A DNA stretch of 64,000 nucleotides, from contig RPFO01000026.1 of NCBI GenBank assembly GCA_009746045.1, positions 2,416,047-2,480,046 of the forward strand, read 5' to 3'. Positions 19,490 to 30,963 of the stretch are shown piece after piece. The notes under the pieces are model-generated. The model did no database searches. It worked only from the letters and a program-made list of their open reading frames with translations, and was not told the DNA's origin. A program made the position numbers and the translations under genes. Origin of the DNA: Mesostigma viride (lineage: Eukaryota > Streptophyta > Mesostigmatophyceae > Mesostigmatales > Mesostigmataceae). How positions within the stretch are numbered: position 1 is the first letter of the stretch; the number at the start of each line of letters is the position of its first letter.

Positions 19490-19596
19490 ACCCTCACATG
19501 GGCTGCTTTGCCCTCACACCAACTGGCTTCAACATGCCCTCATACCAGCTGCTGTGCTCTCACGTGAGCTGCATCGTGCACCCTCACACCAGCTGC
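19490..19596 (-). repeat. Copies of the MCM2 stop-codon region
   Basis: The end of the MCM2 coding sequence (CAGCTGGTGTGAGGG around 19584) is followed downstream by about three degenerate copies (CAGCTGGTATGAGGG, CAGTTGGTGTGAGGG, CAGCCCATGTGAGGG). This is the same echo pattern seen at exon-intron borders. Confidence 0.75.
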
Positions 19597-28500: not shown

Positions 28501-30963
28501 GCTCCCGAGACCTTACTATTGCAGTCATGATGGCCCACTACAGCAGTCACAACTCACAGGGGTCACAATAGCCCATGCTCACCCCATCCTCCTCCTCCTC
28601 CTCCTCCTTCTCCCATCATTCTTCTCATATCTCATCAGAGCGCATTATAGCTCATCAGCGCTCATCACAGCGCATGAGAAAATGCAGTAGAACTCGCTAT
28701 AGCTCACTATAGCAGTCACTACGGCGGTCCCCATGCCGGTCACTGTAGCCTAGCTCAGCACTCACCCCGTCGTCCTCCTCTTCCTCCTCCTCCACCTCCG
28801 CCCCCTCCTCTCCCGTCGGCGCGCCATCTGGCTCCCCATCGCCTGTCGGCATGGCCGCCTCTCGGGTCTCGACGCGTCGGCGGCGGCGCGGGCGATGGAA
28901 GTCATCGTCTTCCGCGTCTGGGCACGCATAAGGAGTCGTCACACGCCCAAAAGGGTGCCGTGAGTATGCCCACACAAGAAGAGACAGCGAGGTCCCATCA
29001 AGTGGAAGTTGTCATTCACCCGTTGTATGCACGTGAGGGGCGCACCCAATGGTCGGTTGCGCACAAGACAGGGGATGAGCATGCTGGTCCTATGCGGGGA
29101 ATAGGGGTATGTCAAGGGAAGGGGTCACCCTGCAGGCCTGCGCAAACCGTGCCGGGTGCAAGCATGACATCCGGTGAGACCCACGGCGCCGAGCTACTAC
29201 CAGCCGAGGGGCATCGGCAGCATGCATACGACAAGCGGTACTGGGATGAGCCACTACCAGCCGCATCATCAAGGAGACAACCAGCGCAGGCCATCATGCA
29301 CGTGCCGCAGCCTACGTGATCACAAGTTCATGCATGCTACCATCGGCACGTCGAGAGGAGCCACCACCAGCGGCATCATGCATACTGACAGTACGATAGC
29401 TAGCACCTTGGCTACTACCAGCGGCACGATGGGATGGGATGCTCTACTAGACCCCAAGAGTCATGGGAAAAAATGACACCAAAGGCGGGGTGACCAGCAG
29501 AAAACAAAGGGTGCGACAAACAAACAGGGCTGAAGTACAGAGCACTCTCGCAAAATTAAAGCAAAACGGTGCACAACGGGGTAGGAGCGGTTGGCACGGT
29601 GACGACGGATAGCATGGCGTGTGGGGAAATTGTTGATCGGCAAGCCGACAAAGCCTTGTCAGGCATCAGCCTTGTCAGGCATCAACCATGGCAGGCATCA
29701 GCCTTGTCGCAGACCACAGCTAGTAGGTAGTCACCAGGGTATGGATGAGTCCAAGATAGCAACAAGCTATACAAGGACTCTCTCTCTCTCTCTTAGGGAA
29801 GCCATCTGCAGAGTGTCTGGTCCGCTCTGAGGATGAGGTGTCATTTGTGAGAAGTGTACTTTGCTGTCAACTGAGACCAGGCAATGACATGCATAGTAGT
29901 GGCTGTGTGCGGAATAGTTGTGTGCCAATCCCACTCAACCCCGTGGAAATCGTGTATAAATAAGGAACGGGGGCAGCCACTCCTTCCCATAACCACGAGT
30001 TAAGCGTGGCTAAGTGGCTAGCTCTACCCTGCTGCCTTGCATCGGTTTCCAATGTGGTATATGTGGCCGTTGGGAGGAGATACATCAGAAGGATGGCTGG
30101 GCAGCGCGCGGGTTTCGCTTAAGCAAGCAAACTACGCTTGACGATCGATTTTGGGATGGGACTTACTGGGCCACATGTGTATTTATTCGTAGCCAGGTAA
30201 TTGAAGGGGTTAGTGAGAAAAAAGCGCAGTCATCACACTGACTAATCACCAAAAGACGTACCTAGGTCTGCCAACGCAGACGGCAAACGGCGCCCTCCCA
30301 ACACGCCTTCCCGCCGATCCCTCCGCTCCATCTCCCTTTCGGCTTGCATACGGGCCTCGGCATCCAAGGGCGCCTGCCCCTCTTCGTCATCCAGGCCTTC
30401 TTCTTCGTATTTATCGAGGTGCGGACGAGCCTCGTAATCGCTGCAGGAGGCAGACGAAAAACGAGCGCGCAAACGAAGGGGATGAGGCCACTTGTTAAGT
30501 AAAGAGCGAGCCCGCGCTGCCATTTGGTGTCTAGCCAAGAAGACTCGACGAGAATCCAAAGTGAAAGCTAGAATGTATCTCCCGAGGCTTACTCCATCAT
30601 GTCGTCGCCAACCAAATCTTCTCCTTCCTCCTCCTCCTCTGGCTGTTCATCATCGCCGAGGAGGTCCGCAGCGTCCGTCATCGGTTCGGCCTCCTCATCC
30701 ATCGTGCCCGGTTCCTCTGTCACTGGTCTCTCCTCCTGCACGTCCTCAGAAGCGGTTGGAGAGGACGGGTCCTGGAGACCAAAAGCACAGAAGGAAAACA
30801 TGCTACAGGGATAGTGATAAGCGTGCCCATAGTTGTGCATAAATCGTAGTCGCTCGCCGTCTGCATCGACGCCAATGGCTTGCAACTACCTGCTACAAAA
30901 AATGGCAAACGACTCTTGGCTTGATAATATGCACGTCCATACATAGCGTTCACGTACCGCCAT
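19584..30963 (-). CDS. MCM2: DNA replication licensing factor MCM2
   Basis: Subunit of the MCM2-7 replicative helicase, acting in the nucleus at origins and forks. Exons (minus): 30963-30958, 30771-30593, 30440-30262, 28917-28766, 28146-27688, 27265-27002, 26240-26049, 25653-25481, 24693-24388, 23880-23796, 22729-22607, 21774-21649, 21400-21218, 20698-20537 and 19697-19584. They sum to 2703 nt, or 900 residues plus stop, matching the usual length of about 900. In order: an acidic N-terminus with the MCM2-specific [16 protein letters not shown] block, a basic RPRRRRR stretch, a C4 zinc finger (Cys330, 333, 353, 356), Walker A GDPGTAKS (524-531), Walker B LIDEFD (586-591), arginine finger SRFD (Arg657), and the C-terminal winged-helix part with [20 protein letters not shown]. 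Exon 1 codes only Met-Ala; it is chosen for its GTACGT donor, phase 0 and nearness to the promoter, and is the least certain exon. Introns are packed with copies of exon edges. Confidence 0.95.
20102..20149 (+). mobile_element. 48-bp terminal fragment of the foldback repeat with 15-bp duplication
   Basis: The fragment starts CAAGGAGACAACCAGCGCAG and is flanked by the perfect direct repeat GCTAGCATAAGCTAT (20087-20101 and 20150-20164). It lies in the last intron of MCM2. Confidence 0.8.
20245..20445 (-). repeat. Exon-end echoes in MCM2 intron 14 (see also 19850-20060)
   Basis: The true donor at 20537 reads, on the coding strand, CTGGAGCACAAG|GTGGGTGC. Degenerate copies of this exon-plus-donor junction recur downstream near 19856, 19927, 20027, 20245, 20340 and 20421 (on the plus strand, GCACCCACC followed by a CTCCAG-type stretch). 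Confidence 0.72.
21063..21148 (-). repeat. About 86-bp copy of the end of MCM2 exon 13 with its donor
   Basis: Matches 21211-21296 at roughly 80% by eye with one small length change. It includes the segment coding LAIRVLLE and the GTGGG-type donor (here GTAGG). It lies downstream of the true donor in the same orientation. Confidence 0.88.
21489..21648 (-). repeat. Donor and acceptor echoes in MCM2 intron 12
   Basis: Reading on the coding strand, the exon 12 end GAGTCCATG|GTACGC is repeated about three more times (near 21621-21637, 21587-21603 and 21555-21575). Then follows a copy of the exon 13 start (GTGCCGCAAGGCATCCCCAT, near 21505-21535). Order: true donor, donor copies, acceptor-side copy, true acceptor. 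Confidence 0.85.
23203..23293. repeat. 30-bp tandem repeat, three copies
   Basis: Three units of CACCTTGATGCCCGGCATGR GTCATCAGAC-type sequence in the intron between MCM2 exons 11 and 10. Confidence 0.85.
23584..23750 (-). repeat. tRNA-related SINE-like repeat, diverged copy
   Basis: Shares the GCCGGT-CGCGGAAAAA segment with the repeats at 36916-37037 and 43548-43669. It has a GGTTCGAAAC B-box-like motif (as AGGGTTCGAAACTAGAACC on the plus strand). Divergent, so assignment to the family is tentative. Confidence 0.45.
25808..25990. repeat. Degenerate GAGCACTAGTTTA tandem repeat
   Basis: About ten loosely conserved units of 15-20 bp (GCACTAGTTTAGA, CCCTAGGTTTAGA) in MCM2 intron 7. Confidence 0.8.
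28406..28439 (+). repeat. Interstitial telomere-type repeat (TTTAGGG)4
   Basis: Four perfect TTTAGGG units inside MCM2 intron 4. TTTAGGG is the telomere unit of most land plants and many green algae. Confidence 0.9.
29270..29291 (+). mobile_element. 22-bp terminal fragment of the foldback repeat with 6-bp duplication
   Basis: Reads CAAGGAGACAACCAGCGCAG then GC, flanked by CATCAT on both sides (29264-29269 and 29292-29297). It lies in MCM2 intron 3. Confidence 0.65.

Follow-up and report, generated by a model that had tools for sequence, protein, structure and literature searches.

Introns of MCM2 and two further genes of Mesostigma viride carry copies of their own exon borders, possible fossils of recurrent local duplication, with an excess at donor sites

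The MCM2 gene in a 64,000-nt window of Mesostigma viride (Streptophyta; contig RPFO01000026.1, positions 2,416,047 to 2,480,046) raises the question of why an intron should contain degenerate copies of the exon borders that flank it. We refer to such copies as own-exon echoes. The original prediction had reported them in most introns of this gene and had taken them as a sign that introns grow by tandem duplication across AG|GT borders. The MCM2 model used here joins 14 exons (exons 2 to 15) on the minus strand in a single open frame with one terminal stop. Its identity is supported by exon 9, whose best match among PDB sequences is MCM2 and which also matches the Pfam domain MCM, and by exon 5, which matches MCM_N. 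Thirteen introns of 152 to 1344 nt were tested, 13 of the 14 considered earlier, with exon 1 and its intron left out. The main counts cover 27 introns of three genes, MCM2, a PPR gene and a coiled-coil gene, within this one window and a single assembly, and in them a match with a score of at least 24 is counted as a copy. Of the coiled-coil gene, the counts take in the exons with a settled frame and not the later ones.

The last 50 nt of each preceding exon and the first 50 nt of each following exon were compared with all 13 MCM2 introns on both strands. Exon ends scored on average 23.2 against their own intron and 15.5 against the other introns, and none of 20,000 permutations gave a value as high. 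Exon starts scored 20.5 and 15.4, respectively (p 5e-5). No signal was obtained with the controls: the reverse complement of the own edges gave 15.8 and 16.5, and tiles taken from exon interiors gave 15.0 when adjacent to the intron (n=41) and 15.6 when non-adjacent (n=232). We then turn to the PPR gene, which adjoins MCM2 on its 5′ side in divergent orientation, on the plus strand, and which was not part of the original finding. The donor side was replicated, with exon ends at 32.4 in their own intron against 17.4 elsewhere (p 0.0001; rank 1 in 6/8 introns). Exon starts gave 19.8 against 16.2 (p 0.05), and exon-interior tiles were again level (16.3, n=39, and 16.2, n=161). In the coiled-coil gene, donor copies, that is copies of an exon end with its donor, were found in two of six introns and acceptor copies in 0/6. 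Altogether 15 of the 27 introns held a donor copy, 7 an acceptor copy and 18 either of them. A few sites lie outside this set, namely two introns of a VanY-like gene, coiled-coil exon 7 and donors at 218, 55880 and 56573; the two VanY introns, both complete, showed no echo at score 22. Own-exon echoes in introns are real and are thus confirmed.

The excess of own-edge matches over other introns and exon interiors, claimed for MCM2, was borne out by these comparisons, and several further particulars of the claim held as well. A donor or acceptor copy is present in 9/13 MCM2 introns, in agreement with ‘most introns’. The constant orientation was also found: no inverted copy of either edge occurred in 21 introns at score 24, and at score 22 only 2/21 donor edges had one. 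Echoes stay on the intron side, since pieces of intron edges were found in the flanking exon in 0/27 introns at score 24 (means 12.7 versus 12.0, p 0.057; other edge p 0.28). In intron 5, the proposed order of two donor copies followed by an acceptor-side copy was found (Table 1). The other places named in advance were recovered for the end of exon 4 and the starts of exons 7, 8 and 9, except for a second exon 9 copy near 24800, which was not among the matches at a cut-off of 21. What did not stand is the equal treatment of the two borders: donor copies are strong, but acceptor copies do not exceed the frequency at which any part of an intron is duplicated.

This difference was measured against one random complex interior tile per intron, for which 6.4 introns and 10.8 matches are expected. 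Donor edges reached 15/27 introns and 34 matches, values attained in 0/5,000 draws and corresponding to 2.4 times the interior background, while acceptor edges with 7/27 introns equalled the background. Donors also exceeded acceptors in matches per intron (Wilcoxon p 0.004); for mere presence or absence the McNemar test gave p 0.057. We further asked which donors carry copies, using 30 donors that included those of the VanY-like gene and the donor at 218. Copies accompanied 13/19 donors with G at position +3 and 2/10 with A (p 0.02), and donors with a stronger G skew over the first 40 nt of the intron had more copies (rho 0.44, p 0.015), both being post hoc and uncorrected values. Three further tests fell short of significance: p was 0.07 for consensus matches, 0.15 for G content and 0.40 for intron length. 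Breakage at intron starts that are G-rich and paired with RNA would agree with these leads, as would a better tolerance of copies of weaker donors.

Junction anatomy, the ungapped donor profile, array spacers and insert frames were analysed in the MCM2 and PPR genes. Among 36 donor-side matches, 33 span the exon-intron junction and exon-only copies are rare, as expected if the duplicated stretch must extend into the intron. Identity in the donor copies drops beyond about -20 to +10, and duplicated lengths range from about 14 to 89 nt. The copies lie early in the intron, 30/33 of them in its first half and 26/33 at most 300 nt from the donor. Counted by intron over the whole set, exon-end echoes are present in the first half of 12/27 introns and in the second half of 0/27. 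MCM2 intron 13 (21149-20807) presents a nested miniature of its own flanks, with an exon 13 end copy carrying its donor followed by a partial copy of the exon 14 start.

Duplication is not restricted to edges. Among 501 tiles of 50 nt taken from the interior of 21 introns, 32% were matched in the same orientation elsewhere in their own intron (score at least 24), compared with 3% in another intron and 3% in inverted orientation; for complex interior tiles of the 27 introns the figure was 26% of 235. Over the whole window, local direct repeats outnumbered inverted ones in 14/16 bins of 4 kb, and these repeats have the same orientation and lie close by, as staggered-break fill-in expects. Moreover, a border without a splice site, that at the MCM2 stop codon, is followed by three copies downstream, a number that 0/500 shuffles produced. 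Hence echoes are not confined to splice borders, and AG|GT is not a target as such, contrary to what had been proposed. They look like the part of a general process of local duplication that becomes visible where constrained sequence gives way to free sequence.

A simple sequence of events would account for this picture. DNA breaks with staggered ends, or pairs of nicks, would be filled in and rejoined, leaving short direct duplications, at times with filler between the copies. A duplication within an exon would damage the protein and the change would be lost. Across the 3′ border of an exon, it would create a new exon end and donor downstream of the original; provided the original, first donor is still used, the copy would be spliced out silently and the intron would become longer. 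Because the exon is constrained, it would serve as a reference and its copy would remain recognisable for longer, whereas copies within the intron would lose similarity from both sides. Comparable duplications belong to the background of paired-nick work in plants and of insertions in rice. The general process finds a parallel in PMC8355091: in mouse and human cells, small tandem duplications arise when staggered breaks are filled in. Both systems share short direct duplications that lie next to their source and are a general feature of the genome, but the copies in the window are often split by unrelated sequence and gather at 5′ splice borders.

A case with filler lies in MCM2 intron 4, where a direct duplication flanks a CCCTAAA-repeat insert. 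CCCTAAA is the plant-type telomere unit, and we take it to be the telomere repeat of the source organism; together with the PPR gene, it suggests a member of the green lineage. The insert looks like a telomere repeat added at a staggered break, and this case favours break repair with occasional filler. Duplications flanking telomere repeats at a few loci, read as staggered-break repair, are described in PMC7215372, where interstitial telomere repeats are inserted at double-strand breaks with duplication of the target. The arrangement of duplication, telomere-type repeat and duplication is the same, although here it is a single case, no other telomere-type spacer being seen in the window.

We favour, with belief and doubt in about equal parts, the reading that break repair has repeatedly produced short local duplications and that own-exon echoes are their fossils, joined by a donor-centred excess whose cause is unproven. 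Several results weigh against it, and the first of them concern the spacers. Sequence beyond the copied donors resembles that beyond the true donor (17.0 versus 12.2 by chance; 10/32 above the 95th percentile), as tandem duplication predicts, but related sequence was seen beyond only 10/31 donor copies. Under a neutral clock, the copied edges would lead one to expect more similar spacers from plain tandem duplication in 22/31 cases, a count that overlaps with the 10/31; the same test sets far copies against the true donor, which puts copies of copies at a disadvantage, and its copies were chosen for similar edges and so appear younger than their real age. With 22/31 too unlike, filler or a faster change of spacers must be assumed. 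In MCM2 intron 14, the spacers between six edge copies are on average unrelated (mean z -0.05). Neutral simulations gave at most 0.45 matches per donor edge, with or without filler, where 1.26 were observed. At score 20, no echo accompanies the donors at 55880, 56573 and 53717, nor coiled-coil exon 7. Donor 55880 (GTGGGT) is echo-free contrary to the +3G trend, donor 53717 (GTATGT) in line with it. Six of the 19 +3G donors have no echo, and +3G edges have more chance matches in other introns (2.2% versus 0.6%). Finally, a stop border is echoed in one of three genes, those of the PPR and VanY-like genes being without any copy.

For the donor excess itself, a mutational cause, such as breakage where the 5′ end of an intron is G-rich or paired with RNA, is favoured but unproven, and the excess may shrink in a genome-wide count. 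A stronger form is possible, though we think it less likely than not: in this lineage duplication would occur preferentially across 5′ splice borders and introns would grow from the donor end, in a manner tied to transcription or to donor sequence, so that echoes would form a dated record of each growth step.

The opposite simplification is a purely neutral tandem duplication acting everywhere, in which edges are special only through exon constraint and purging and no donor-specific process exists. It is doubtful, though well supported in part: interior duplications are common, one stop border is echoed, acceptors stay at background and several arrays have related spacers. We examined it by forward simulations of neutral duplication in which exons were constrained and splicing always took the first donor, with or without filler, a simple model that makes a weaker argument than the tile control. 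In 12 settings, the acceptor count was always within range (at least 0.105), but none reached 34 donor matches and the chance of 15 donor introns was at most 0.0055. Simulated donor fractions fell below simulated interior fractions, the reverse of the 15 introns found against 6.4 expected from interior tiles. A smaller first simulation had given 0.05 to 0.35 matches per intron at score 22. With the shortfall per donor edge given above, the neutral part alone falls short for donors. Pure tandem duplication was rejected on two grounds, its shortfall of donor copies in every simulated setting and the 22/31 copies that are too unlike. In a listing of local duplicate pairs without the two simple-repeat blocks, 22 were gapless and 65 separated.

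Could selection preserve the copies, whether for use as alternative 5′ splice sites, as docking sites for U1, or as backup or decoy donors? We consider this unlikely. The excess is donor-specific and GT is retained in 28/33 donor copies; when the copies are aligned without gaps, the final exon base, G and T match at 0.94, 0.94 and 0.91, against 0.76-0.82 for neighbouring bases. We read this better match as an anchoring effect, with weak selection possible. In gapped alignment, G (+1) was kept in 30/31 copies and T (+2) in 27/31, so that preservation of the copied donor (57/62) does not clearly exceed that of exon positions (566/662). Depending on the copy, the exon part shows 0 to 29% divergence from the exon, and its identity is even over the three codon positions (190/213, 185/222 and 191/227). 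Should the copies serve as donors, the predicted reading would meet a stop in 31/33 and a frame shift in the other 2, leaving 0/33 open inserts that keep the frame. A generic donor function would besides need no own-exon sequence to about -20. Given the even decay over codon positions and donor together with the 0/33 frame-keeping inserts, we reject functional decoy donors as the main cause, and the copies, which appear to decay freely, look like fossils rather than working splice sites. On the acceptor side, AG is retained in 4/7 copies spanning the junction, numbers too small to compare with 28/33 for GT as regards a disabling of upstream acceptors.

An older idea, the tandem-duplication model of intron gain (Rogers 1989), also involves a duplication over the exon-intron border. 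Introns would arise when exon pieces containing AGGT are duplicated in tandem, leaving the echoes as remnants of that birth, a view that we judge very unlikely. In the window it is existing introns that lengthen, and copies of the upstream exon end lie at the 5′ side of the intron, not at the 3′ side: in the last 80 nt, own introns scored 10.7 and others 11.4 (p 0.96), with 0/27 at score 24 or more. For the start of the downstream exon, the first 80 nt of the intron showed a weak own excess (12.3 versus 11.5, p 0.03), with 1/27 reaching score 24, MCM2 intron 7. Direct repeats of the Rogers-Bendich type would make the 5′ and 3′ borders of one intron alike; here they are no more alike than chance (13.6 versus 13.4, p 0.41; 0/27). 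Direct repeats near intron splice sites ascribed to break repair in PMC11782384 resemble ours in lying at borders, but that work pairs the 5′ with the 3′ border, an excess that the window introns do not show. The birth geometry is thus absent apart from this one possible case, direct repeats from border to border were not found, and no gained intron could be identified in the window. What stands of the proposed growth of introns is that short same-orientation duplications cross exon borders and lengthen introns, with related sequence beyond the donor in the minority given above; plain tandem duplication does not fit the majority with unlike spacers.

Mobile elements inserted at donors with long target-site duplications would explain why the spacers between edge copies are unrelated and roughly similar in size. 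Introner-like or transposed elements form families, but spacers across different introns of the two genes share none (mean z 0.16, sd 1.10, n 138), for which reason mobile-element filler was rejected, and the duplicated length varies widely as given above; we find this explanation highly improbable. Chance or an assembly artefact, for which the single assembly as sole source might speak, is next to negligible in view of the permutation, reverse-complement and other-intron controls and of a divergence in the exon part mostly above read or assembly error.

Table 1. Genes and copies in the window. Positions are those of the window.
Feature	Positions	Strand	Remarks
MCM2 gene, exons 2-15	19584..30771	-	open frame over all joins; PDB and Pfam matches
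PPR gene, 9 exons, replication set	31739..40076	+	open frame; PPR repeats in 3/3 exons searched; 31739 is an arbitrary left limit, not a start codon
Coiled-coil gene, 7 modelled exons	4283..9755	-	donor copies in introns 1 and 2 of 6
61-nt direct duplication flanking CCCTAAA-repeat insert, MCM2 intron 4	28349..28497	-	57/61 identical
Copy of exon 4 end and donor, MCM2 intron 4	28578..28608	-	score 47
Copy of exon 5 end and donor, MCM2 intron 5	27587..27622	-	score 32
Second copy of exon 5 end and donor, MCM2 intron 5	27475..27510	-	score 47
Copy of exon 6 start, MCM2 intron 5	27346..27377	-	score 24; acceptor AG lost
Copy of exon 7 start, MCM2 intron 6	26382..26404	-	score 26; AG lost
Copy of exon 8 start near 5′ end of MCM2 intron 7	26001..26033	-	score 30; AG lost
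Copy of exon 9 start, MCM2 intron 8	24876..24902	-	score 27-29; AG kept
Four copies of exon 11 end and donor, MCM2 intron 11	22229..22529	-	scores 33, 33, 31, 23
Three copies of exon 12 end and donor, MCM2 intron 12	21546..21629	-	spacings 28, 32, 32 nt
Copy of exon 13 start, MCM2 intron 12	21482..21526	-	score 41; AG lost
89-nt copy, exon 13 end through donor +8, MCM2 intron 13	21061..21149	-	score 101
Partial copy of exon 14 start, MCM2 intron 13	20807..20826	-	score 35
Six copies of exon 14 end and donor, MCM2 intron 14	19854..20438	-	scores 24-39
Three copies of MCM2 stop-codon border in 3′ flank	19490..19553	-	scores 29, 26, 23; no splice site
Four-copy array of PPR exon 2 end and donor	33680..33901	+	
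Four copies of PPR exon 6 end and donor	37417..37682	+	
Copy of PPR exon 8 end and donor	39610..39644	+	
Copy of PPR exon 6 start, upstream of true acceptor	37075..37106	+	
Copy of exon end at 218, coiled-coil region	109..156	-	score 68; 54-column alignment

Some further features of the window were recorded on their own account. In the 27 introns, the first stop after the donor came at a median of 33 nt in the entering frame and 65.5 nt in the other two frames (p 0.025, uncorrected), as if selection stops read-through into introns soon. Intron 4 of the coiled-coil gene, at position 6421, apparently begins with GC and not GT. The VanY-like gene (PF02557; 52214-53807) is spliced and lies in a eukaryotic contig. 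Simple repeats comprise a GGAT array of 2.46 kb (40810-43271; 615 copies, 100% matches) and a second block at 14794-15701. Clusters of the unit TTTTTCACCCC, in both orientations and with repeated palindromes, are found at 45332-45576 and 48473-48664. Between genes, a short repeat of which one form is TATCAAGGAGACAACCAGCGCAGGCC occurs at 17143-17179, 17482, 18463-18491 and 18575; by eye, the same type is also present in MCM2 introns 3 and 14 and is possibly part of a mobile element.

A search of the literature by title or beginning of abstract, with subscription journals mostly outside its coverage, found no description of own-exon echoes in introns, and a scan of viral contigs found no relatives. 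Intron lengthening is usually read from transposons. Own-exon echoes would allow it to be followed where transposons play no part: with the constrained exon as internal reference, the rate, size, position and age of growth steps would be readable from one genome. If true genome-wide, the excess at donors would suggest that breakage or repair of DNA has a source linked to splice sites.

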